Shown piece after piece: positions 25,705 through 42,662 of a DNA stretch of 64,000 nt. This DNA is from Bacteroidia bacterium (GTDB lineage Bacteria > Bacteroidota > Bacteroidia > J057): NCBI GenBank assembly GCA_030430205.1, contig JAUIGE010000003.1:310001-374000 (forward strand). The letters run 5' to 3'. The position numbers and the translations under genes are program-made. The notes beneath the pieces were generated by a model, which was not told the DNA's origin, did no database searches, and saw nothing but the letters and a program-made list of their open reading frames with translations. How positions within the stretch are numbered: the stretch's first letter is position 1; the number at the start of each line of letters is the position of its first letter.

Positions 25705-26844
25705 TTATTCATTTCCTTCTGATCCGAAATCGTATGTAAGGGTAAATCGCAGGGTGTTTTGCAGGGGATGATTAGGGGCAAGTGGGGCGAGGTAAGAAAA
25801 GTGCAAGCCAAATACATTGTATCGGAGGCCTGCTCCAAGGGTGATAAATTGGCGATTTCCTTTAGCCGGATCCTCATAGAACCAACCGATCCGGGCAGAA
25901 AACAAGTCCTGATACCAGTACTCCATTCCTATGCTCGTGGTGATTTCTGATAACTCTTCTCCAAAACCTCCTTCTGCATCACTAAAGCTTCCAAACATGC
26001 CACTCAGCAATGAGAGGTCAGAGCGACCGCCTTCTGATGGGACCATGAGCTTGTTGAAGTCATTGGTGAAGGTAATCGAATTGTACTCATCAACCTGAAA
26101 CTCAAAAGCATATCCTACTCTTAAATTGATAGGGATAAAGTCCGATGCTGATGTGGTTGAAGTGTAAGACACTTTAGGACCAATATTAGAAATATTAAGT
26201 CCGGCGGAGAAGTTGACAGGTAAGTCCTGTCCGGCAGAAGTGATGCTAAAATCTTTTTTGTAAAGAAAGGCAATGTCGCCAGCGACAGAGTTTACAGGCT
26301 TGATATTGGGGTCTACATTTACAGTAGATACCAGGCGACTATAAAAATACCGAAGGGAAATGGCTGCGCTGAAATCCTCTGTCACTTTAAGTGAATATCC
26401 CAGGTCAAGCGCAAATTCGTTGGGCTTATCCTGTCCAATAGGATTGGCATCCAGGTCAGTAAACTCGATTGTACCCAAAGAAAAATAACGCAGAGAAGCC
26501 CCCAGAACACCATTATCATTTACACGATAATATCCTGAAAGGTATGCGAGATTGATGTCGGGGATGCCTAAAGATCTCAGCCATGGAGAGTAGGACATCG
26601 AGAATCCCATTGAATTTTCTATAAAAGCTAATGCTGCTGGGTTCCAGTGCATAGCGTTTGCGTCATCAGTAACTGCTACATTTGCTTCGCCCATACCTCC
26701 GGCCCGAGAGTCGGGTGCTACGGAAAGAAAGGGTGCCGCTGTGGTGATTACACTCGTGCCATCTCGTCCCGTTTGGGCGGAAGTTACTAAAGCGCTTGCC
26801 ATCAGCAATCCTAGGCAAATGGCGGTAATTAGTGCTTTACTCAT
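25705..26844 (-). CDS. porV: T9SS outer-membrane protein PorV (LptO)
   Basis: 379 residues. PorV is a FadL-like beta-barrel that collects T9SS cargo from the SprA translocon and passes it to the attachment complex. The signal peptide ends near AQTG; the mature N-terminus has TTAAPFLSVAPDSRAGGMGEA and DDANAMHWNPAALAF, which are diagnostic. The rest alternates in beta-barrel fashion and the chain ends LRFTLTYDFGSEGNE. The start is the ATG at 26844; a weak TACATTTA box lies 40-47 bp upstream. It serves the same machine as the gldN gene and would handle the cargo proteins encoded further on. Confidence 0.93.
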   Translation of the reverse strand: MSKALITAICLGLLMASALVTSAQTGRDGTSVITTAAPFLSVAPDSRAGGMGEANVAVTDDANAMHWNPAALAFIENSMGFSMSYSPWLRSLGIPDINLAYLSGYYRVNDNGVLGASLRYFSLGTIEFTDLDANPIGQDKPNEFALDLGYSLKVTEDFSAAISLRYFYSRLVSTVNVDPNIKPVNSVAGDIAFLYKKDFSITSAGQDLPVNFSAGLNISNIGPKVSYTSTTSASDFIPINLRVGYAFEFQVDEYNSITFTNDFNKLMVPSEGGRSDLSLLSGMFGSFSDAEGGFGEELSEITTSIGMEYWYQDLFSARIGWFYEDPAKGNRQFITLGAGLRYNVFGLHFSYLAPLAPNHPLQNTLRFTLTYDFGSEGNE

Positions 26845-27686: not shown

Positions 27687-28247
27687 ATGAGACTTTTTTT
27701 ACCATTGCTGTTAATGTGTTTTCTCTTAACAGCATGTACAAAATTCGAGCGGGTAATTGAGTATTTTGAGTCTGGCGAAAAGTATATGGAGGGGTACCTA
27801 AAAGATGGGAAAAAGCACGGAAAATGGATTTGGTGGTATGCCAATGGCGCAAAACAGTTTCAAGGGTATTATAAAGATGGCAAACAGCACGGTCTGTTTC
27901 AATACTACCATGGGTTAGGCTATCTGGATTATGAAATCCATTTTAAGGATGACCTCAAGGTGGGTAAATCCACACATTACTACGAAGATGGCACCATAAA
28001 ACTGGAAAGTGTATATGTCAAGGATGTGATACATGGTCCTTATATCACTTATTGGGAAAATGGCATGCCTTACCAAAGAGGTTGGTTTAAATGGGGGGAA
28101 AAGGATAGCTTATGGACCCGCTATTATAAGGAAGGTGGAAAACGGATGGAAGGCCTCTTCAAATATGATGTTCAGGTAGGTGAGTGGACATGGTGGGATG
28201 AAGATGGTATAATTGCTCGCATGGAGCAATACCAGGAAATTGAGTGA
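27687..28247 (+). CDS. MORN-repeat lipoprotein
   Basis: 186 residues. The lipobox LLTAC places the modified Cys at residue 17, so it is a lipoprotein, probably outer-membrane. The rest is made of MORN-type (YwqK-like) units: GEKYMEGYLKDGKKHGKWIWW, GAKQFQGYYKDGKQHGLF, and four or five more with the pattern ...G....G.W..Y. Such units form beta-strands in a row; their target is unknown. Families of this kind are often labelled as antitoxin components in databases, but nothing here supports a toxin partner. It has its own promoter. Confidence 0.85.
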   Translation: MRLFLPLLLMCFLLTACTKFERVIEYFESGEKYMEGYLKDGKKHGKWIWWYANGAKQFQGYYKDGKQHGLFQYYHGLGYLDYEIHFKDDLKVGKSTHYYEDGTIKLESVYVKDVIHGPYITYWENGMPYQRGWFKWGEKDSLWTRYYKEGGKRMEGLFKYDVQVGEWTWWDEDGIIARMEQYQEIE

Positions 28248-28419: not shown

Positions 28420-29577
28420 ATGACCCCTGGCTTTTTCACTCATAATAAAGCGATGGCTTTTTGGGTACTCCTTCTTTTCGTAGGGGTGTCTTTGCCTCAT
28501 ACTGGCTTCAGTCAATGTGGAATAACCATTCCCAATGGTGAGAGGTGTGAGGCCCCAGGAGGGGACAATTGCGAGTTTTATATCTGTGTACAGGGTCAAT
28601 GTGTGCCCTCAGGCCTGTATTATCCTTCCGGTACAAAATGCGGCTGCTTTTCCGACGAATGCTATGAAGACTTTTGCGATGCCTCAGGCGATTGCGTTTG
28701 TGGTTTTTTTGCAGCAGCAGCAGCCTATAATTGTGCTTCTGAACAGAATATATGCGATGGAGTAGCCCATTGTGATGGCTTGAGTGCCGAAAATTGCAAT
28801 GGAAGTACAACTTTCCCTGCAGCCTCCTGTGATGATGGCGTGCTATGTACGGTTGATTGCAATCCTGTAGAAGGTTGTGTCACTTATCCTATTGATAACC
28901 GCTGCGATGATAGTGATAATTGCACCGTTGATATTTGTGATACTACTACCGTGTCCGGCTGTCTGAATACCTGTACCGGAACCCAGGCTTGTGCGGGCCA
29001 GGCTGCCTGTACTTCTTTTCCGATTACCTGGAGCAGTATTTCGGCATATGCAGAAAACGCGACCATATTTGTTGAATGGATGACCTCGATGGAATTAAAT
29101 AACAAAGGATTTGAGGTCGAATTAAGCGAAGATGGGATCTTTTATTCCCAAATTGGATTTGTATCGGGAAGCGGCACCAGCCGGGAGGCACAATTTTATG
29201 AATTTCAAAGTCCTATTATGCGTTATGGCACAAATTATGTGAGATTGAAGCAAGTAGATTTGGATGGTGGGTATAGTTATTCCCATGCTTTAGAAGTAAG
29301 CGTGCCTCTTAAGCAATTGCTTCTTCTGGAACATGCATACCCCAATCCATTCCGGGATAAGACCACCATCCGTTTTTCAGTAAAAGAAGAAGTATTTGTT
29401 AGCCTGAAAGTGTATGATTGGGGTGGAAAAGAAGTAAAGCGTTTATTTACAGGAACAGCTAAAGCACATGAGGTATATAGTTTTACCCTCCATGCTTCCG
29501 GACTTACCGCAGGGACATACTTTTATGAACTTGTGGGTGGACAGAACCGGGTGGCTCGCAAGATACTTGTCTACTAA
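28420..29577 (+). CDS. Cys-rich secreted protein with T9SS type A sorting domain (copy 1)
   Basis: 385 residues. The signal peptide is most likely MAFWVLLLFVGVSLPHTGFS (second Met, codon 12). Residues 30-205 are Cys-rich, with pairs such as CDDGVLCTVDCNP and CDDSDNCTVDICD that resemble the CTDC motif of slime-mould matrix proteins. Then follows a beta domain (VEWMTSMELNNKGFEVELSE; NYVRLKQVDLDGGYSYS) usual before T9SS tails, and a type A sorting domain from AYPNPFRDKTTIRFSV to RKILVY. The protein is therefore exported by Sec and T9SS and probably anchored at the surface. The next gene is a paralog 62 bp on. Confidence 0.88.
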   Translation: MTPGFFTHNKAMAFWVLLLFVGVSLPHTGFSQCGITIPNGERCEAPGGDNCEFYICVQGQCVPSGLYYPSGTKCGCFSDECYEDFCDASGDCVCGFFAAAAAYNCASEQNICDGVAHCDGLSAENCNGSTTFPAASCDDGVLCTVDCNPVEGCVTYPIDNRCDDSDNCTVDICDTTTVSGCLNTCTGTQACAGQAACTSFPITWSSISAYAENATIFVEWMTSMELNNKGFEVELSEDGIFYSQIGFVSGSGTSREAQFYEFQSPIMRYGTNYVRLKQVDLDGGYSYSHALEVSVPLKQLLLLEHAYPNPFRDKTTIRFSVKEEVFVSLKVYDWGGKEVKRLFTGTAKAHEVYSFTLHASGLTAGTYFYELVGGQNRVARKILVY

Positions 29578-29639
29578 TAATATTTTTCTTGTCTTTACAG
29601 CCTGTAGCTCCAGTCTCTGTCCAAACATTTTTTTGCCAT

Positions 29640-30818
29640 ATGGAATTTAGGGTAAAAGTACCAGCAAAAATCCTCCCTTTGCTATTTGTAGTAGGTTGGT
29701 TTGGCTATTTGCCTAACCTGGTTGCTCAGTGTGGTGTCAGTATTCCATTTGGTCAGCACTGCTCCCCTCCTCCAAGACTCGCGGCCCAATCTTGTTATTT
29801 TTGGGAATGTGATACAACTTCTACAGGTGGAGACACCTGCAAAATTACGAATGTTCCCCTTCCTATTGGATCTCGGTGTGGACTTTTTGGTGATGAGTGC
29901 TTTGATGACTTTTGCAATGGGCAAGGGATTTGTGTTTTTAGTTTTAGTGTAGCACCCAAAAGCAGCCCTTGTGCATCTGACCGGAATGTATGTGATGGTG
30001 TAGAGCTTTGCAATGGTTTAAGTGGTTTGAGCTGCCAGGGAGATACCATTTATCCAGCTTCAAAATGTGATGATAATGTTTTTTGCACAGAAAACTGCAA
30101 TCCTATAGATACCTGTGTCACCTTCCCTTTTAATGAGCGATGTGATGACAATGATATTTGTACAGATGATATCTGTGATACAACAGGTACCCAGCCTTCA
30201 TGTATCTCAACTTGTACAGGCTTAGCTGCTTGTGCTGGAACACCAGGCTGTGTGGGTTTTCCTGTTGAATGGTTGAATTTTACGGTTTGGGCGGATGGAA
30301 GAGACTTGCTGATGGAATGGATGACAGTGAATGAAATAAACAATGTCGGCTTTGATATAGAAATCAGTTTGGATGGTGAAATGTTTATCAAAAGGGGTTT
30401 TGTAGAAGGAAAAGGGACCATATCTGATGCGCAGTTTTATTCCTTCCACACAGAAGTACTTAATTATGGAGATAATTATGTGCGCATCAAGCAATGGGAT
30501 ACAGATGGTGCTTTTTCTTATTCGAAGACCCTGAGGGTTCATGCGCCCCAGCCTATTCCATTTGAAATGGGGCGGGCCTTTCCCAACCCATTTAGAAAAG
30601 CGTGCATGCTGAGTTTTTCAGTTAGTAAGCCCTCGATGGTTCGTTTGGTCGTCTACAATCAAAGCGGAATTTTGGTCAAAATCCTTTTTGAAGGGAAAGC
30701 TGAGCCAACGATAATTTATCGAAGTGTATTAGAGGCCGAAGGGCTTGCGCCAGGTATGTATTTTTATCGCCTGGAAGGCGACTTTGAAAGCGAAGTTCGT
30801 AAACTTACTCTATATTGA
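29640..30818 (+). CDS. Cys-rich secreted protein with T9SS type A sorting domain (copy 2)
   Basis: 392 residues, paralog of the gene before it over its whole length: GDECFDDFCNGQG, CDDNVFCTENCNP, CDDNDICTDDICD, then EWMTVNEINNVGFDIEIS, NYVRIKQWDTDGAFSYS and a C-terminal AFPNPFRKACMLSFSV...RKLTLY. The start was set at the ATG at 29640, where a good signal peptide begins (EFRVKVPAKILPLLFVV); an earlier ATG at 29589 would place 17 polar residues in front. Tandem duplication followed by divergence is the simplest origin. A short exported protein gene starts 2 bp after its stop. Confidence 0.88.
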   Translation: MEFRVKVPAKILPLLFVVGWFGYLPNLVAQCGVSIPFGQHCSPPPRLAAQSCYFWECDTTSTGGDTCKITNVPLPIGSRCGLFGDECFDDFCNGQGICVFSFSVAPKSSPCASDRNVCDGVELCNGLSGLSCQGDTIYPASKCDDNVFCTENCNPIDTCVTFPFNERCDDNDICTDDICDTTGTQPSCISTCTGLAACAGTPGCVGFPVEWLNFTVWADGRDLLMEWMTVNEINNVGFDIEISLDGEMFIKRGFVEGKGTISDAQFYSFHTEVLNYGDNYVRIKQWDTDGAFSYSKTLRVHAPQPIPFEMGRAFPNPFRKACMLSFSVSKPSMVRLVVYNQSGILVKILFEGKAEPTIIYRSVLEAEGLAPGMYFYRLEGDFESEVRKLTLY

Positions 30819-30820
30819 TC

Positions 30821-31228
30821 ATGAGAAGCTTAATTTTTTTTGGTGTATGGGTCGTTTTGGGCTCTGCTCTGGTAGCCCAAAACAATAATGCGGCATCACC
30901 CACGCTAAGTCCTGAGGCCGCTTATGAACATTATAACTCTCCCGAATACCTTGCAGCAGTTGCTACCAATCACCTCATTCAGGAATTGGGACTTACTGGC
31001 GACCAAAGGGAAAAGGTATATTGTGCCAAGCTCAATTACTTACAGCACAAAAGCGCTTTGATCAAAAAGCATGAGCGGGAGGGTGGCAGCTCTATGGCAG
31101 CACGCCTTCAACTGTATGAATACAGAAAAACCTGTAACAGGGAAATACGCTCCGCACTGAATCCCACCCAAATAGAAAAGTTTGATGCCTACCTAAATCG
31201 AATGGAGAATGGCAACTCAGGAAATTAA
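30821..31228 (+). CDS. Small exported helical protein, downstream of the Cys-rich pair
   Basis: 135 residues. Signal peptide MRSLIFFGVWVVLGSALVAQ; start ATG at 30821, 2 bp after the preceding stop, so the genes are very likely co-transcribed. The mature part is helical with LGLTGDQREKVYCAKLNY and ALNPTQIEKFDAYLNRM, a layout like Spy/CpxP-type periplasmic proteins with LTxxQ motifs. That family includes chaperones and metal sensors; a chaperone for the disulfide-rich neighbours is an attractive but untested idea. It is convergent with the epimerase gene, 5 bp apart. Confidence 0.75.
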   Translation: MRSLIFFGVWVVLGSALVAQNNNAASPTLSPEAAYEHYNSPEYLAAVATNHLIQELGLTGDQREKVYCAKLNYLQHKSALIKKHEREGGSSMAARLQLYEYRKTCNREIRSALNPTQIEKFDAYLNRMENGNSGN

Positions 31229-32456: not shown

Positions 32457-35400
32457 CTATCGGATCAGGGTAATGGTACCCGTTTGCTCGGCCATTTTTC
32501 CGCTAATATCCTGATAGCGAACTACGTATACATAAACACCTTCCGGAACGTCAGCGCCATTAGCGTTTTTGCCATTCCACTTGAAGGTAGGCTCATTGGC
32601 TTCATAAACCACTGTGCCCCAGCGACTGAAAATCTTAATCTGGAATTCACGCAGATTGTAGTTTCCAATTTTGTATTCGTCATTGTAGCCATCACCATTA
32701 GGTGTGAAAGCAGAAGGCATAAATGCATTGACGATCTTTTTCACTTCAATGACCGTTGTTGCAACGAGTTCACATCCGTTTTTATCAATAGCAGTTAAAG
32801 TGACTGTATATCTTCCAGGGGTCACATATTCATGTACGGGAACCTCAAGGTCAGAAACATTATCATCACCAAAGTCCCAGGTCCATGCTGTCAGTTCGAT
32901 GCTGGAAACAGGGGTAAACTCTACTGTTCCGACAGGAAGCTCTACCAGGGTTTTACTTGGACTAATGATCAGGTCCTGGTCAGAAGCTACATATCCTGTG
33001 ATAGGGTACCTTTCACTTTCACAGCCATAAATAGAGGTTGTGGTCACAAAGAAGGTTCTATTTGAAGGAAGAGGATCTGTTACATAGGCATAGCCATTAT
33101 AGAAAGGCTTTTCTACAGTCAGGTCTGTATACCATTTCACTTTTACATTGGAATTAGCAGCAGCGATCAGGTATGCAGGACTTGAGAAACATACAGTATC
33201 TTCTGTTAACTCAGGAAGAGGCGGATAGTCATAAACCGTAACGGTACGGAGTGCATTATGTCCACAACCTTTGTCCGATACTACCTGCATATTTACAGGA
33301 TAAACGCCTGGCCCATCATAGACAAAACTAGGGTTTTGCAAACCAGTCGGGCCTTGTCCTTGGCCACCAAAGTTCCAAAGCCACTGATCCAAATTGGTAT
33401 ATGCTATAGTAGAGAGGTCAGTAAAGTGAATGGTATCACCGGGGCAAACATTATAAGACTTAAAGCTGGCACGAGGATTAGGATCGATGACCAGGTCCTT
33501 CTTAACTGTTTTGCTACAACCCTCTGAAGAAATCACAGTGAGAACAACCTGATAAGTACCAGGGCCTACATCTCTATATCTTGTGCCAGGATTAGGAGCA
33601 TCAGATTTAATACCATTTCCAAAATCCCAATTCCAGGCAACGATAGGTGTTGCAGAACTGATTTGAGTGGCATCGGTAAAAAAGATATCGTCAAACTCAC
33701 AGTGACCTGTAACATTGAAGTCTGCGCGAGGCTCTTCAAATACCGTAATATCTCGTGATGTTGAATGTACACATCCATTGCCGGTGGTTACTGTAAGGAT
33801 AACGGTTTTATTTCCAGCAGCGGCATACACATGAGTAGGTTGCTTTCGACTGGAGAAGTTATTTCCTCCTGAAGCAGGATCTCCAAAATTCCAGGCATAG
33901 GTGCTGATCTGATCCAATCCTCCTCCAACAGATGAACCGTTGTAAGAAAAGACTACGCTATCCTGGCAAGCATTGGTGACTTCAAATGAAGCTACGGGAA
34001 TGGGGTGTACAAATACGGTTTGGCTAAAAGAATCCACACAACCAGCAGCCGAGGTTACGATCAAAGTCGTGTTGTAATAGCCCGAGGTATCATATAGGTG
34101 TGTAGCAAGGCTACCCGTGGCGCCATTTCCATCCCCAAACTTCCAAACGATATCCGTGATTACACCCGGAGCATTTATGACAGAGCGGTCAGTAAAGACT
34201 GTAGGGGAACCCTGGCAGATGTTTGTGAGATCAAATAGGGCATCTGGAAGATTTTCCACGGTTACTGTTCTTTGCAAGGAAGCTTGACAACCATTGTCAG
34301 AAGTCACATTGAGGTTGACAGTATAGCTGCCTGCGGTCTGGTAGGTGTGGGTTGGGTGTTGCAAATTGGAAGTCGTACCATCACCAAAATCCCATTTCCA
34401 GCTGATAAGCCTTCCTTCAGAGATGGTTGATTGGTCTAAAAATTCAGTTTGTATACCTTCACACACAGTTGTAGGAGAGAAGTCAGGCACTGGCTGAGCG
34501 TAAGGGCTAACTGTTGCAAAAACAGTATCTCCCAAACAACCATTGGCATCTTGCGGGATCATCCATACACTCGTATCCTGAGTGATATTAGCCACGATGA
34601 TGAGAGCCGTGTTGGTAGGTGTAGTGCTCCAATTGTAATTGGTAGCTCCTGAGGCAATCAGGGTAGCACTTTGTCCATCACAAACTCTGAATGAGCCAGA
34701 AATATCACCTGGAGGGCCAGGATTGATCTTAACTGTCACAAATTCTGCCTGAGAAGTACAGCCATTATCAAAAGTAACTACAGAAAGCGTTGTGGTGTTG
34801 CTATATGGATAGCGGATCGAAGCCGTCGTATCACCCGTACTCCAGAGGTAGCGTGTACCTCCCGAAGCGCGAAGGGTGATAGAATCACCTCTACAGATGG
34901 TCGGTTGAGCTGGCGAAATCCTTACCTGCAGAGAAGGGTTAATCACCACCTTAACAAAGTCTTCCGTTTCACAAATACTATCTGTCACGTAAAGGACATA
35001 GTCAATTGTATCTACGACACCTTGATTGAGGTTGGTAAGGGAAAAATTCGGCTGAGCCAAAGTTGAGTCACTCAATCCCTTTTTGGGCGTCCAGTTGTAG
35101 TACTGGCCAGGAATATGGGGCGTTCCCAATTGGAAAAGGAAGCCGGAACATATAGTAAGGTCTGGCCCGGCATCTGCGGTAACACCTGTTGATAGCGTCA
35201 CAAAATCACGGAAAGAGTGAGCACATCCAAAAGTATCCGTAATGGTCAGGTCTACGAAATAGGTAGCAGGCCTTGGATAGTTGTGCAGCAGAGATGAGTC
35301 ATTCAGGTTCGTATTGAACTGAGGCTGCAGGTTACCATTGCCACGCCAGGTATACTTATAGTTTTTAAATCCACTTGGGATATTGGAACGGGGTACAGCA

Positions 35401-36728
35401 GAAAGCTGAACAGAGTTACAGTTATTGATAGGCTGTGCAGAAATGGTACTGTTAATAAGCGGCTGGGTGACATTGATCAGGTAAGTAACACTTGCAGATC
35501 CTGGGATAGGACAGGCATCATCAATCACAATCACGTCCAACAGATATGTACCTGGAGCGGTAGGTGTCCAGCAAAAACGGCCCAAAGGAGCTTTGCCACG
35601 AATTGTATCTTGTATTGCAGGGTTGGCTGGGCTGAAGAAAGTCGCACCTACCATGGTATTCCTTACTTTATTCCAAATCAACTGATAGTTGAGGGCAGTA
35701 TCTTTAGATGTTACAGGAACATCAAAGCAAATAGGCGCACCGGCACAAGCTCTAAGCAATTTCGGACCCAATGTGCCAACAGGTAAATTGGTAAGCGTTG
35801 GGTTCGTAATAGGGGGAACATCCGGGTTGCTACTTGTACAGTTAGTAATAACCGTAATCTGCATATCCCTCACCACACTACCGATTTTTACCCGGTTTCT
35901 CCATTCTTCCACTTCTATACAAAGCACACCTACAACGGGGCTACCGTTAGGGTTAGGAGCCATTTCGATCTCACCCGTAAAAGGGTCAAGAGTTACTCTC
36001 CAATCTGTCCCCAGAGGACTGGTAAAAGAGTAGCCGGCGCCATAAGTCACATTGGTACCTGCATTAGAAATACAAGGTACAAGGCGATAAGACAGGGAGT
36101 CTCCATCCGGGTCAAAGGCACCCTGTATAAATGTCTGGGTTTGGCCCGCGCAAATATAAGGTACGGGAACGTTGATGAAGGTAGGAGAGCTATTACAAGG
36201 GGTGATGGTCAGGTCAATGACCGTCTTACCTGTATAGATGCCATTGCTGGCAGAACCAGAAGTAATGGCATTGTTTCGGCAGCAGTTGTACCAGGACAGG
36301 GTAAATGTGGTACAGGGGGTTGAACCACCCAAACAAAAGTCATAATCCCTATAATAATGGGCTTCAAGTACACCATTAATAGATGAGCTTGCAGAAGTAC
36401 AACCAGTAGAAAAGCCTGGACAAACAGGTGTAACCTCTACATAACGTGTCTGAATCCAGGGGCCTGCTGGCAGGGGGTTGGTATTACAGTTGGATGGAGA
36501 CTTGGCAAAGGTTACGTTGGGTGTAGGGCCGGGGCCCGGTAGTGGGGTTGTAGCCCCTCCTTTACAGTCAAAATACGCTTTATGCGTGATCCTGTAAATA
36601 CAAGGACCCAGACATTCATAGCTGATGTCTACGCCCATATAGTGTGTAGCCTTGCTTTCTGTCGTAAGAAATGCGAACAACAGAAAAACAAAAAAGGGTT
36701 TTAAAATTTTTACAAAAAGTGGTCTCAT
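32457..36728 (-). CDS. Giant PKD-domain protein with T9SS type B sorting domain
   Basis: 1423 residues. A signal peptide ends near ESKA; the mature start THYMGVDISYECLGPCIYRIT begins a Cys-containing N-terminal domain of about 280 residues shared with the divergent paralog. At least six PKD units are recognisable from about residue 770 to 1300 by their W.FGDG/FGNG motifs (WKWDFGDGTTS, VWKFGDGNG, WNWDFGNG, WTWDFGDDN). The C-terminus from AFMPSAFTPNGDGYNDEYK (about 1338) to the end is a type B (gliding-associated, CHU_C-like) sorting domain. PKD proteins of this build are surface adhesins or scaffolds; ligand unknown. The type B tail predicts handling by a PorE/SprF-like partner, not seen here. 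Confidence 0.93.
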   Translation of the reverse strand: MRPLFVKILKPFFVFLLFAFLTTESKATHYMGVDISYECLGPCIYRITHKAYFDCKGGATTPLPGPGPTPNVTFAKSPSNCNTNPLPAGPWIQTRYVEVTPVCPGFSTGCTSASSSINGVLEAHYYRDYDFCLGGSTPCTTFTLSWYNCCRNNAITSGSASNGIYTGKTVIDLTITPCNSSPTFINVPVPYICAGQTQTFIQGAFDPDGDSLSYRLVPCISNAGTNVTYGAGYSFTSPLGTDWRVTLDPFTGEIEMAPNPNGSPVVGVLCIEVEEWRNRVKIGSVVRDMQITVITNCTSSNPDVPPITNPTLTNLPVGTLGPKLLRACAGAPICFDVPVTSKDTALNYQLIWNKVRNTMVGATFFSPANPAIQDTIRGKAPLGRFCWTPTAPGTYLLDVIVIDDACPIPGSASVTYLINVTQPLINSTISAQPINNCNSVQLSAVPRSNIPSGFKNYKYTWRGNGNLQPQFNTNLNDSSLLHNYPRPATYFVDLTITDTFGCAHSFRDFVTLSTGVTADAGPDLTICSGFLFQLGTPHIPGQYYNWTPKKGLSDSTLAQPNFSLTNLNQGVVDTIDYVLYVTDSICETEDFVKVVINPSLQVRISPAQPTICRGDSITLRASGGTRYLWSTGDTTASIRYPYSNTTTLSVVTFDNGCTSQAEFVTVKINPGPPGDISGSFRVCDGQSATLIASGATNYNWSTTPTNTALIIVANITQDTSVWMIPQDANGCLGDTVFATVSPYAQPVPDFSPTTVCEGIQTEFLDQSTISEGRLISWKWDFGDGTTSNLQHPTHTYQTAGSYTVNLNVTSDNGCQASLQRTVTVENLPDALFDLTNICQGSPTVFTDRSVINAPGVITDIVWKFGDGNGATGSLATHLYDTSGYYNTTLIVTSAAGCVDSFSQTVFVHPIPVASFEVTNACQDSVVFSYNGSSVGGGLDQISTYAWNFGDPASGGNNFSSRKQPTHVYAAAGNKTVILTVTTGNGCVHSTSRDITVFEEPRADFNVTGHCEFDDIFFTDATQISSATPIVAWNWDFGNGIKSDAPNPGTRYRDVGPGTYQVVLTVISSEGCSKTVKKDLVIDPNPRASFKSYNVCPGDTIHFTDLSTIAYTNLDQWLWNFGGQGQGPTGLQNPSFVYDGPGVYPVNMQVVSDKGCGHNALRTVTVYDYPPLPELTEDTVCFSSPAYLIAAANSNVKVKWYTDLTVEKPFYNGYAYVTDPLPSNRTFFVTTTSIYGCESERYPITGYVASDQDLIISPSKTLVELPVGTVEFTPVSSIELTAWTWDFGDDNVSDLEVPVHEYVTPGRYTVTLTAIDKNGCELVATTVIEVKKIVNAFMPSAFTPNGDGYNDEYKIGNYNLREFQIKIFSRWGTVVYEANEPTFKWNGKNANGADVPEGVYVYVVRYQDISGKMAEQTGTITLIR

Positions 36729-37223: not shown

Positions 37224-40200
37224 ATGATGTCTGTTAAACAGTTTCTCAGAACCCTACCGTTGGTATTTGCCTTGTGGTTTGTCATGCCGGAGGCTTCGGC
37301 GTCGCATTTTATGGGGGTAGATATCTCCTATCAATGTTTGCCAAACAGCAACGGCTGTGTATTCAGAATTTTCCATAGTACATACTATGATTGTACAGGA
37401 GGGGCCACAACCCAACTTCCCGGCCCTCCGGCTGCTCCTTCATTGGGCACTTTTACCCCTGCGGCATGTATCCAGCCTACCCTTGTCGGTTCCTGGGTTT
37501 TTGTATCTTACACAGAGGTGACCCCCATCTGTGGTAGCGCTGCTACGCAGTGTACAGACCCCAATGCCACCATTAACGGGGTATTGGAAGCACGATTCTA
37601 TGCAGACTACAACTTCTGTAATACCAATTGTAATGTGTATAATATTATATGGGGTAGTTGTTGTCGTAATGGCTCGATTACTTCCGGTGCGAGTAATGGC
37701 GGGATTTACACAGGTAATACCCAGATCAACCTGGGCCTGACTCCCTGTAACAGCTCTCCGATGTTTTCTGTGCCACCTGTTCCTTATGTATGTGTGGGCC
37801 AGAACTTTACCTTTAATCAGGGAGCGTTTGACCCTGATGGAGACTCCCTGGTTTATCTACTGACTCCTTGTCAGGATGTCGCTTCCACTCCAGTGGGCTA
37901 CAGTGCAGGTTTTTCGCCGACACAACCTCTTGGAGCTAGTTGGACTGTTACCTTGAATCCAAATACAGGAGACATTAACCTGGTCCCTAACCCTGGTAAC
38001 GTTGTTACAGCGGTTTTGTGTGTGACTGTAGAAGAGTATAGAAACGGAGTTAAAATCGGTGAAGTGTCTCGTGACATTCAGGTAACTGTGATCAACTGTG
38101 GCGCGAATACTCCGCCTACTTTCACTCAGTTGTCGAATGTTGTAGGGGGCTACCAAACAGGACCTTATCAGATTACAGTTTGTCCCAATACTCCTTTCTC
38201 TTTTAATATATCGGGTACGGACGTTGACCTGAATGACAGCCTGATGCTGCTTTGGAATCCCGTTACCGCTCCTGCTGGTGCTACTTTTACACAAGCAGGA
38301 ACATCTACTCCTTATCCAGTCAATGGTACAGTACCGAATCCGCCAGTTGGAATGATGAGTTGGACTCCAACGATCTCAGGTACATATAATGTTACTTTTA
38401 CCATTCAGGACAATGGTTGTCCGCTGATTGCTTCCAACCAGATAACAGTCGTTATTGATGTGGCAAATGGTGTATTGTCACCGTCAATCACCAGAAAGAG
38501 AACATCTTGCTATGAGTCAGAATTTATTATCTCATCTGGTGGCGGTTGCCCGCCTTATACCGTAACCTTTGATCCCGGTGATGGCACTACCCCACTTGTC
38601 AATCAAATCAATACTGCTAATTGGGTCGTTAGTCACCCATATCCTGCGATTCCTTCGCCTCCTGCGACCTATAACTATAGTGTGAATTTTGTGGACTTTG
38701 GTGGAAATACAGCTTCCGTATCAGGTAGTGTCACGGTTTCCAATACAGCCATTGCCAATGCTGGTCCAGATCTTTTCCTCTGTCCAGGTCAGGCCGGTCA
38801 GATAGGAACACCCGCACGCCCGGGGCATACTTATAGCTGGAGAGGGCTTACCTCCAATCTGGGCTTACCCAATGGTTCCGGTCGCTCTCTGGCTCAACCA
38901 GGTGTGTCTCTGAATAATACAACCAATAGTACGATCTCTTTGCGCTATGAAGTCACAGCGACAGACTCCATCGGTTGCGTTTCTTTGGATACAGTAAAAG
39001 TTGATTTTAATCCTAAACCGAATCCCAGTTTTACAGCTTCACGGGCTGTTTGTCAGGGAGAAATAGCCACTGTAACCTATACCGGTATCCGCGCTCCGGG
39101 TACTACCTATACCTGGACATGGGGAGCCGGAACCAGTACAACAGGTAATGCAGGAGTAGGACCTCATAGTGTATTTTGGAATCCTCCCGTATCTGGTTTT
39201 CAAACGGTTCTTCTGAGAACAACTGTGAAAGGTTGTGTATCGGATGCTGTAACTCAATTGGTTGAGGTAAAGAAAATCCCTACGGCGGTTTTTAATGTTA
39301 TTAGCCCCATCTGTAGAGGACAAGCATCTATTCTTACCTACAATGGTAGCAGCAGTCCTGGTGCAACAGGAACCTGGGATCTTAATGGGGGAACAGTTGT
39401 AGCCGGAGACCCTACCGGTCTTGACCCGCTGACAGTTACCTGGAATACCCCAGGAACAAAAATTATACACCTGACAGTGAATGACAGGGACTGTATCAGT
39501 CCGGTTTATACAGACACGATCATCGTTTATCCTATTCCATCATCTGCATTTAGCAATCCGGGTTCTGTATGTCAGGGAGACACAGCCCAGTTTGTATACC
39601 TCGGTAACTCTCCGACAACGGCTGCATTTGCATGGGATTTTGATGGAGGTATTCCTACTCCCGCACTGCTGGGAAGAGGTCCTATCAATGTGGTATGGAA
39701 CACACCCGGGACCAAGCGTATTTGTCTGAATGTGCAGGAAAATGGTTGTTTCTCCAGCCAGACCTGTGTGAGTGTAATTGTTCACCAGACACCCGTGGCA
39801 GCTATTGATCCTGTTTCCAATGTTTGTTTCAATAATGGGGCAAATAGTGTAACCTTTGTCAAAGGAAGTAACACCATAGGTGCTACCTATGCCTGGGATT
39901 TTGGAGATGGCTCTACCCCAAGGGTCTCTGCTAATCCTAGTCCGGCAGGTGTTCAATACCTCTCTCATGGAACCAAAACGGCTTCTTTGGTGGTGCAAAC
40001 CAATGGTTGTGTAAGTGATACAGCCAGGGTCAGTTTTGATGTGATCAAAGAGCCAGTATCAGACTTTATCATCAATTCCAGAAGCACCACATGTACCCAT
40101 GACACCATTACCCTGACCTTAACGAAACCCTCTAATGGGGCAGGACAGACATATTTATGGAACTTTGGCCCCAATGCAAGGCCTGCGACTTCCAGCTTAC

Positions 40201-42662
40201 CTAATCCCGGTCCAGTGTTCTACACTGCGGGAGGTGTGAAACCTATTTCCCTGGTAACCACTTATAGAGGCTGTAAGGATGTAAAAGCCCAGTTTATCCG
40301 CGTTGAGGAAAGTCCCTATTTCTCTGCAGGTCAAGAGATTGACTTTTGCGAAGGAGATGGTGGGGAGCAGCTTGATGCTACAGTTACTGGTGGTACGCCA
40401 GGTTATACCTACCGCTGGTGGTGTAGTGCCGCGAGTTGCGGGTTGAGCAGCAATGTGGTCCAAGATCCATTTGTCAATCCTCTGGCTTTTGCACCACAAG
40501 TCATACAGTATTATGGACAGGCAGTAGATGCTAAAGGATGTCGTTCCAATATTGATACAGTCGGTGTGACCGTGCATGCCAAACCCAAGGTAGACGCAGG
40601 TGATGACATCGTCATGTGTGATGATGGTATAGGTGTTTCTCTCAATGGAAAGCTCGCTACTGATAATAAGGCACCTGGACCGTTTAGCTATCAGTGGGCC
40701 GATGATCAGGGGAACTTCCCACCCAATGGAATGGTTCCACCAAACGATAAGCGCCTCGATCCCTATACAGCGCCAAATCAGACAACCCTTTATACCCTGG
40801 TTATCACGGATATCTCAACAGGATGTGATAGCCGCCTGACGACCGTAGATCCCAAAAGTACAGTAGAGGTCCGCGTTACGCCACGTCCGATTGCCAATGC
40901 GGGCCGCGACACTGTCGTATGTTTTGGAGATAACATCAAACTGATAGGCTATGGTTCTGGAGGAGATGGTAACTATACCTATGCATGGACACCTACAAAT
41001 ACAGGTACGATAAGCAATCCTACCGTTAAAGATCCTACTATAGGCCCACAACAAACGACCGTCTATACCCTGGTTGTGAAATCGGAAGGCTGTGAAAGCT
41101 CTGGTGATCAGGTGAAGGTAACGGTCTATACCGAACCTACAGCTGATGCGGGCGATGACAAGGACATCTGTCTGGGAGACTCCATCAAACTTGATGGTCG
41201 GGTAAGTGGTGATCCGCGGGATCCTGCCTATAGTTTCCGTTGGGTACCTGAAATAGGACTGAATGATCCTAAGTCTGAAAAACCCAATGCCTCTCCTATG
41301 TCAACCCAGATTTACAAACTTATAGCAACCTCCGACTATGGTTGTGGTGCAGATACGGCCACAGTAAAAGTGGAAGTGAACCCTACTCCTATAGTGGAGA
41401 TTACATCGCTCGATACGGTTATCTGCCAGGGCGATGAAATCAGACTGAAGGCCAGGCATTCATTTATAACCACAGCGAGTGGTGGACCGGTCGTCTATCT
41501 CTGGACGCCTGCAAGTACTGTGATCGATGGAATCTTTGATCCAGCAGCCACAGTTAAACCTAAGGTGACTACACTTTATAATGTAAGCACCAGTATCGGA
41601 AACTGTAGTACGAGTGATCAGGTACTGGTAACAGTAGTACCAGGTATTGAAGCACTCATAAATGTGTCAGATACAGCGATTTGTGCTGGGGAAACGACAG
41701 TATTGACGGCTTCAGGCGGTTTGGGAGATGCGAAATATTTCTGGACACCAGGCCTTAGCCTGTTGGATAGTCTTGCTGCTGAAACTCCTGCTGCGCCACA
41801 GGTTTCAACCACTTTCACCCTGAGAGTAGAAGAAGGGATATGTGTTGATGATACAAGCGTCACCATCACGGTTTATCCTACGCCTTCTTCTGATTACTTT
41901 ACTTCACAGCCGGAAGGCTGTACGGGTCTGGAGGTGAATTTCCAGGAAAACACCCAGGACGCGGTTTCCTATATCTGGGACTTTGGTGATGGTTCGCCAT
42001 TGAGCAACAGTAAGGACCCTGTATATGTGTATAACACACCAGGAGAGTATCTGACTCAATTGACTGCTGTGGGCGCATTTGGTTGCGAAAGCACGACCCA
42101 AAAGGCGATTATTCGAATCTCTGACGGCGCTGTTGCAGACTTTGTCTCCACACCTTTCACCGATCAGCCTATTCCGCTTCCGAATGCTACTGTAGCTTTT
42201 GAAGATCTCTCTTCCAATGCAGTAAGCTGGCTATGGGACTTTGGCGATGGGGCTACTTCTACCCTGGCCAACCCGACTCATACTTATCGCCATCCTGCTG
42301 ATGCTGATAATCCGAGTGTGGGCTACTACGTTACCCTGACCGTTAAAGATGAAAACGGTTGTGTTAGCTCCGTGGCTTACGGACCTTATCTGGTGAGCAT
42401 TCCGGATGTATTTATCCCGAACGTATTCTCTCCAAATGGAGACAACATCAATGATGAATACCTTGTAAACTATAGTGGAAGCGAAGACTACAGTGTAGTT
42501 ATTCTTGACCGCTGGGGCCGCAAAGTATTTGAATCTGAAGTGCCAGGAGAAGCATGGGTAGGATTGAACCCAAATGGTGTAGAAGCACCAGCCGGCGTTT
42601 ACTACTACGCTGTGAAGGTTGGCGAAAAAGTCCTTAAGGGTAACCTGACTCTGGTTCGCTAA
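37224..42662 (+). CDS. Giant multidomain surface protein with T9SS type B sorting domain
   Basis: 1812 residues, paralog of the divergent PKD protein. Signal peptide (VFALWFVMPEASA), then SHFMGVDISYQCL and the same Cys-containing N-terminal domain (YDCTGGATTQLPGP; CCRNGSITSGASNGGIYTG). The middle holds PKD-like units (WDFGDG at about 890, 1580 and 1670). Between about residues 1123 and 1554 there are five tandem 80-100-residue beta modules that begin with AG.D...C.GD-like motifs (ANAGRDTVVCFGDNIKL, ADAGDDKDICLGDSIKL). The C-terminal type B sorting domain starts at VFIPNVFSPNGDNINDEY and ends LKGNLTLVR. It is probably a surface adhesin. Domain content differs from its paralog, suggesting module shuffling. 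Confidence 0.93.
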   Translation: MMSVKQFLRTLPLVFALWFVMPEASASHFMGVDISYQCLPNSNGCVFRIFHSTYYDCTGGATTQLPGPPAAPSLGTFTPAACIQPTLVGSWVFVSYTEVTPICGSAATQCTDPNATINGVLEARFYADYNFCNTNCNVYNIIWGSCCRNGSITSGASNGGIYTGNTQINLGLTPCNSSPMFSVPPVPYVCVGQNFTFNQGAFDPDGDSLVYLLTPCQDVASTPVGYSAGFSPTQPLGASWTVTLNPNTGDINLVPNPGNVVTAVLCVTVEEYRNGVKIGEVSRDIQVTVINCGANTPPTFTQLSNVVGGYQTGPYQITVCPNTPFSFNISGTDVDLNDSLMLLWNPVTAPAGATFTQAGTSTPYPVNGTVPNPPVGMMSWTPTISGTYNVTFTIQDNGCPLIASNQITVVIDVANGVLSPSITRKRTSCYESEFIISSGGGCPPYTVTFDPGDGTTPLVNQINTANWVVSHPYPAIPSPPATYNYSVNFVDFGGNTASVSGSVTVSNTAIANAGPDLFLCPGQAGQIGTPARPGHTYSWRGLTSNLGLPNGSGRSLAQPGVSLNNTTNSTISLRYEVTATDSIGCVSLDTVKVDFNPKPNPSFTASRAVCQGEIATVTYTGIRAPGTTYTWTWGAGTSTTGNAGVGPHSVFWNPPVSGFQTVLLRTTVKGCVSDAVTQLVEVKKIPTAVFNVISPICRGQASILTYNGSSSPGATGTWDLNGGTVVAGDPTGLDPLTVTWNTPGTKIIHLTVNDRDCISPVYTDTIIVYPIPSSAFSNPGSVCQGDTAQFVYLGNSPTTAAFAWDFDGGIPTPALLGRGPINVVWNTPGTKRICLNVQENGCFSSQTCVSVIVHQTPVAAIDPVSNVCFNNGANSVTFVKGSNTIGATYAWDFGDGSTPRVSANPSPAGVQYLSHGTKTASLVVQTNGCVSDTARVSFDVIKEPVSDFIINSRSTTCTHDTITLTLTKPSNGAGQTYLWNFGPNARPATSSLPNPGPVFYTAGGVKPISLVTTYRGCKDVKAQFIRVEESPYFSAGQEIDFCEGDGGEQLDATVTGGTPGYTYRWWCSAASCGLSSNVVQDPFVNPLAFAPQVIQYYGQAVDAKGCRSNIDTVGVTVHAKPKVDAGDDIVMCDDGIGVSLNGKLATDNKAPGPFSYQWADDQGNFPPNGMVPPNDKRLDPYTAPNQTTLYTLVITDISTGCDSRLTTVDPKSTVEVRVTPRPIANAGRDTVVCFGDNIKLIGYGSGGDGNYTYAWTPTNTGTISNPTVKDPTIGPQQTTVYTLVVKSEGCESSGDQVKVTVYTEPTADAGDDKDICLGDSIKLDGRVSGDPRDPAYSFRWVPEIGLNDPKSEKPNASPMSTQIYKLIATSDYGCGADTATVKVEVNPTPIVEITSLDTVICQGDEIRLKARHSFITTASGGPVVYLWTPASTVIDGIFDPAATVKPKVTTLYNVSTSIGNCSTSDQVLVTVVPGIEALINVSDTAICAGETTVLTASGGLGDAKYFWTPGLSLLDSLAAETPAAPQVSTTFTLRVEEGICVDDTSVTITVYPTPSSDYFTSQPEGCTGLEVNFQENTQDAVSYIWDFGDGSPLSNSKDPVYVYNTPGEYLTQLTAVGAFGCESTTQKAIIRISDGAVADFVSTPFTDQPIPLPNATVAFEDLSSNAVSWLWDFGDGATSTLANPTHTYRHPADADNPSVGYYVTLTVKDENGCVSSVAYGPYLVSIPDVFIPNVFSPNGDNINDEYLVNYSGSEDYSVVILDRWGRKVFESEVPGEAWVGLNPNGVEAPAGVYYYAVKVGEKVLKGNLTLVR

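Follow-up and report, generated by a model that had tools for sequence, protein, structure and literature searches.

T9SS type A cargos (TIGR04183/PF18962) carry a signal peptide, an FN3-like linker and a C-terminal type A sorting domain. CTDC-like repeats (PF00526), known from Myxococcales, Planctomycetota and others, can be strung together in up to dozens of modules. Myxobacterial TraA joins a PA14-like domain to TIGR04201 Cys-rich repeats and a MYXO-CTERM tail (PMC3325183), and its authors proposed that the Cys-rich repeats act as a disulphide-stiffened presentation stalk (PMC3325183, PMC12045341). The Spy/CpxP/CnrX superfamily and the Bacteroidota DUF4890 proteins are helical proteins of about 130-150 aa with a signal peptide and with LGLTxDQ and ALxPTQ-type motifs. 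Our literature searches found nothing relevant on T9SS with Cys-rich or Spy-like partners, and no paper naming DUF4890.

Here we describe a three-gene locus, the trio, that shares features with each of these groups. Its first two genes encode proteins with the overall build of type A cargos, but their passenger is an array of 24-26 Cys that is unmatched in sampled genomes outside the genus. Two of the five array modules (d and e) resemble CTDC-like repeats, and such motifs occur in 23 loci outside the genus. Unlike those repeats, the trio arrays score below the Pfam cut-off, have diverged in modules a-c, stop at five modules and end in a T9SS tail where the others have other endings. Like TraA (PMC3325183), each cargo reads as an exported surface protein in which a tandem Cys-rich region is combined with a sorting tag at the C-terminus, and each has a close paralog encoded in the same genome. 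The cargos differ from TraA in having no identified recognition domain, in T9SS rather than MYXO-CTERM sorting, in the lack of a reported TIGR04201 match and in the absence of TraB from the immediate neighbourhood. The TraA stalk thus offers the closest functional analogy for the arrays and not a claim of family membership. The gene 3 product has the leader, length, predicted helical character and motifs of the Spy-like and DUF4890 proteins, but it falls below family cut-offs, has two conserved Cys and lies beside T9SS cargos.

Organization and conservation of the locus

The trio consists of three same-strand ORFs called in the window, the 64,000-nucleotide stretch of DNA that was analysed. 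The genes and two neighbours are as follows.

25705-26844, minus strand: PorV (NF033710 equivalog, 434.5 bits against a cut-off of 250)
27687-28247, plus strand: MORN_2-repeat small protein with a lipobox-like leader, directly 5' of the trio; 62% identity over 172 aa in the sister species
28420..29577, plus strand: gene 1, 385 aa; Cys-rich T9SS type A cargo, paralog 1
29640..30818, plus strand: gene 2, 392 aa; Cys-rich T9SS type A cargo, paralog 2
30821..31228, plus strand: gene 3, 135 aa; small exported-looking helical protein, divergent Spy/LTXXQ/DUF4890-like

The ORF calls bear out the preliminary description of tandem paralogs with a third gene 2 bp downstream. Its observation as a whole is confirmed, and its interpretation, a surface layer or adhesion system with its own folding helper, is partly supported. 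Full-length identity between genes 1 and 2 is 44%, and 62 bp separate them, the start of gene 2 being most plausibly the ATG at 29640. The ATG of gene 3 (30821) lies 2 bp past the gene 2 stop (30818). Neither gap contains a terminator-like site, and a scan for sigma-70 promoters and terminators returned sites no more numerous than in shuffled sequence. A candidate Bacteroidota-type promoter 5' of gene 1, judged by eye, was set aside for its off spacing and its lack of conservation in the sister species.

A sister species, represented by a Bacteroidia MAG (G001, contig JAUIKF010000004.1), retains all three genes. There the trio is intact and in the same place, with gaps of 62 and 1 bp and with the MORN-repeat lipoprotein upstream and methylmalonyl-CoA epimerase as flanks, as in the first species; phosphatidylserine decarboxylase is a further neighbour. 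Such conservation indicates that the trio is not a chance arrangement. Gene 3, presented in the preliminary description as a partner of the pair, accompanies it in 2/2 genomes that carry the pair; these are the two genomes of the genus examined, so the co-occurrence counts as two cases within a single genus, related by descent. Orthologs are more alike (58% for gene 1, 54% for gene 2) than paralogs within a species (44-48%), placing the duplication before the species split.

Predicted export and type IX sorting

Both cargos appear to carry the signals expected of T9SS substrates at each end.

28420..28512, plus strand: gene 1 predicted signal peptide, with a putative Q-rule cut ahead of Q32
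29023..29325, plus strand: gene 1 FN3-like beta-sandwich, residues 202-302 (AlphaFold2 strands)
29326..29574, plus strand: gene 1 T9SS type A C-terminal sorting domain, residues 303-385 (TIGR04183, PF18962)
30264..30815, plus strand: gene 2 FN3-like domain and T9SS type A sorting domain (TIGR04183, comparison with gene 1)

In both species the gene 1 and gene 2 proteins begin with a hydrophobic leader followed by Gln (a putative N-terminal Sec leader, read by eye). All four cargo proteins read QCG right after the leader, and both gene 3 proteins likewise have Gln at the post-leader position. Such a Gln fits the Q-rule described for substrates of signal peptidase I in Bacteroidetes (PMC10653852). 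Because the residue before the first Cys is Gln and not a lipobox residue, the cargos look unlike lipoproteins.

The type A sorting domain assigned earlier to both paralogs holds in each. TIGR04183 scores 34.7 bits on gene 1 and 24.8 bits on gene 2 against an NCBIfam cut-off of 23, while PF18962 is above its Pfam cut-off on gene 1 (E 2.5e-9) and below it on gene 2. AlphaFold2 predicts residues 202-302 and 303-385 of gene 1 as two beta-sandwiches, the FN3-like domain and the sorting domain, with pLDDT of about 80-91 from residue 311 to 385, and the top Foldseek row for gene 1 is latent PorU. The C-terminal half of gene 1 (residues ~185-384) recurs in dozens of ORFs of its own genome; judged from sequence, the FN3-like domain is a common linker of T9SS cargos there.

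Type A sorting is plausible for these proteins given PorU in the same genome (1220.7 bits) and PorV beside the trio. PorV, the carrier for T9SS type A cargos, lies ~1.6 kb upstream of the trio in both species; in the window it is on the opposite strand.

Two large T9SS type B proteins also adjoin the trio, at 32457-36728 (minus strand) and 37224-42662 (plus strand), with TIGR04131 scores of 55.5 and 39.4 bits against a cut-off of 35. With these two sorting-domain proteins nearby, the region is dense in T9SS cargo.

The cysteine array

The passenger of each cargo is a Cys-rich array lying between leader and linker.

28513..29022, plus strand: gene 1 Cys array, residues 32-201; 26 Cys in five 4-Cys modules plus an extra pair
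29727..30263, plus strand: gene 2 Cys array, residues 30-208; 24 Cys

The arrays span 170-179 residues, and 24 Cys columns are invariant in the four cargo proteins (two paralogs in each of two species). They resolve into five tandem 4-Cys modules, a to e, whose gaps alternate short runs with a long spacer (per-protein permutation p values of 0.007 to 0.03, with the best of four phases chosen inside each shuffle). The modules had been called CTDC-like from the letters, and the resemblance is visible in modules d and e, which look like CTDC repeats in their CDDxxxCTxD-C....C pattern; modules a to c are made out chiefly by spacing. The likeness does not extend to curated family thresholds, since PF00526 (Dicty_CTDC) is reported in 2/4 proteins, at 11 bits and E 0.39 against a gathering cut-off of 27 bits. 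Searched against NCBIfam at E up to 10, the four arrays returned no family.

The array is likely the functional part of the cargos, being their best-conserved region. Orthologs are 74% and 64% identical in the array, 48-51% in the FN3-like domain and 42% in the sorting domain; with the shared cysteines left out, array identity is still 69% and 59%. Synonymous rates were saturated or not computable in most comparisons. An additional Cys pair, gene 1 residues 76 and 94, is present in paralog 1 of both species, and neither Cys occurs in either paralog 2. Joint presence and absence is as expected for a disulphide, the pattern being a single evolutionary observation from one duplication event.

The array matches no known enzyme in Pfam, NCBIfam or solved structures, in keeping with the preliminary description, and we rejected an enzymatic reading. 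For gene 1, AlphaFold2 models residues 1-201 at pLDDT <50, and comparison of the array with solved structures gave no credible match. The one PDB row for the array, diaminopimelate epimerase at E 0.62, is a chance hit.

Composition raises a reading in terms of metal. The arrays hold 21-24 Asp+Glu against 3-7 Lys+Arg, and their CDD motifs are invariant, so they might be ligand- or metal-binding modules that take calcium through the acidic motifs or a soft metal through thiols, with gene 3 as a periplasmic metal binder of the CnrX/ZraP kind. Disulphides are preferred to thiol metal sites on account of the even number of Cys and of the two that were gained or lost together, and no known metal-binding family is matched in Pfam or NCBIfam. 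We consider this reading distinctly unlikely.

Small disulphide-rich modules commonly serve as inhibitors or antagonists. The arrays could accordingly be secreted effectors, protease inhibitors or antagonists of other microbes, instead of structural surface parts, and two diverged paralogs could then differ in their targets. Inhibitor and toxin families in Pfam and NCBIfam are unmatched, however, and the neighbours (the MORN lipoprotein, methylmalonyl-CoA epimerase and phosphatidylserine decarboxylase) include no immunity-like gene. An effector role is the least probable of the readings we weighed.

As to a surface layer, no S-layer family was matched in Pfam or NCBIfam, and two S-layer chains far down a generic beta-sandwich Foldseek list are uninformative. 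Nothing found favours an S-layer over other surface roles.

The gene 3 protein

Gene 3 is tied to Spy-like proteins through its relatives. The preliminary description took it for a small Spy/CpxP-like protein, an assignment that direct family searches do not carry: LTXXQ (PF07813) gives E 0.18 and 12.9 bits against a cut-off of 24.3, the Spy model (NF007769) E 0.067 and 13.5 bits against 174, and DUF4890 (PF16231) is not reported by Pfam at E up to 1 and so stays under its cut-off. What stands is the indirect connection. A profile built from the two gene 3 sequences matched 24/395 class genomes, both trio species included (E <= 1e-4), and when five of the relatives were scanned against the DUF4890 cut-off, two scored above it and three below. 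Gene 3 is in this way linked by sequence to the DUF4890 family, its own score being under the cut-off. The aligned relatives have in common a leader ending AQ, an LGLTxDQ-type motif and an LTPEQ-type motif. We read gene 3 as a diverged representative of a Spy/LTXXQ/DUF4890-like family that is widespread in Bacteroidota.

The predicted fold weakly supports the same assignment. An AlphaFold2 model from two sequences (pLDDT 75.6) places helices at residues 41-56, 60-87, 92-112 and 115-131. VIA-align rows include STV (Z 8.6), CnrX (7.1), Spy (6.5) and CpxP (5.6), with the unrelated kinase DgkA among them; Z of 5.6-8.6 is within the range given by unrelated helical bundles. Foldseek against the PDB gave no match at E <= 0.001. 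The CnrX chains among these neighbours would suit the metal-binding reading, but the ranking does not separate CnrX from Spy or STV.

Two cysteines set the trio's version apart.

31022..31024, plus strand: gene 3 Cys68, kept in both trio species; an aligned Cys in one other extracted relative (L092, the same locus as L012)
31133..31135, plus strand: gene 3 Cys105, kept in both trio species and in none of the other relatives extracted

Most of the other extracted relatives lack any Cys. We considered an intramolecular Cys68-Cys105 disulphide, but on a simple reading of the predicted gene 3 hairpin these residues do not appear to face each other.

The relatives elsewhere have no Cys-rich cargo within ~1.5 kb on each side. 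In another Bacteroidota genome, one relative (L085, features at 80-946 and 1501-1923) has upstream of it a same-strand ORF that carries, close to the C-terminus, a sorting-tail-like PNP motif. Viral contigs yielded no relative.

Genes 1 and 2 may well encode T9SS surface proteins with no particular tie to gene 3, whose product would then be an envelope-stress or general periplasmic protein in its own right, encoded on the same transcript. Its relatives occur in many Bacteroidota with no such cargo beside them. In Phocaeicola vulgatus, Spy-like genes count as envelope stress genes and share transcripts with sigma/anti-sigma pairs (PMC13114119), and the Flavobacterium type IX translocon already contains a Skp homologue, there a structural part (PMC10994853). 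These two precedents, stress regulators beside Spy-like genes and a Skp homologue inside the translocon, make an independent stress role nearly as likely as a link to the cargos, and we regard it as a serious possibility. Against it, gene order and the 1-2 bp spacing are kept in both species though the proteins have diverged to ~51% identity, the two Cys are retained in both trio proteins and occur in almost no other relative, and gene 3 matches only itself in its own genome.

Proposed function

We tentatively favour, somewhat short of calling it probable, a genus-specific unit in which two T9SS surface proteins bear disulphide-stiff arrays and gene 3 supplies a periplasmic partner. The products of genes 1 and 2 would be exported by Sec and their signal peptides cut at the Q-rule site. 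The cargos would then cross the outer membrane by the type IX system through their type A sorting domains, with PorU releasing or anchoring them. Outside the cell, the FN3-like linker would bear the array of five small 4-Cys modules, which about 12 or 13 disulphides may lock into a stiff, protease-resistant stalk or matrix element and not an enzyme. We identified no ligand-binding domain. The gene 3 protein would stay in the periplasm, probably as an ATP-independent holdase of the Spy type or as a thiol partner, produced along with the Cys-rich cargos; this helper step draws on gene order in two related genomes, on the general function of Spy and on the unusual cysteines. Disulphide bonding, surface location, the stalk or matrix function and any action of gene 3 on the cargos are inferences, and so are the adhesion, S-layer role and chaperone link of the preliminary description.

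A stronger form of the helper step is a cargo-specific T9SS folding unit, in which the Cys pair of the Spy-like protein handles oxidative folding or prevents premature disulphides in the cargos of the same operon. We think this unlikely, though conceivable. It is a fair question to test how proteins rich in disulphides get across the periplasm and through the type IX translocon, and the trio is a compact natural case. A gene 3 protein dedicated to these cargos would bring a client-specific helper into a pathway in which the Skp-type component described so far is a general translocon part; otherwise the locus is another lineage-specific pair of surface proteins made from known parts.

Distribution

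The trio is a genus-restricted variant, a recombination of known kinds of parts. An array profile gave no further genome in the order (22 searched, E 1e-3). Across 395 genomes of the class (E 1e-3) its two matches were the two trio species, with none in the 393 others, and across 395 genomes of the phylum (E 1e-4) its one match was the trio's own genome; the class and phylum samples partly overlap. In other genera of the family, the epimerase and decarboxylase genes are still adjacent in several genomes, and no homologue of the cargo Cys region was found there.

A scan of genome contigs recovered the sister species and 23 loci, largely in Myxococcales and other non-Bacteroidota MAGs, that have only CTDC-like motifs in common with the trio arrays. 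One such record, titled as a Klebsiella pneumoniae MAG (MaH-04nov19-278; L031), holds an ORF of CTDC-like repeats, 1515 aa long and containing 155 Cys; its Klebsiella label looks questionable and may stem from misassignment or contamination of the bin.
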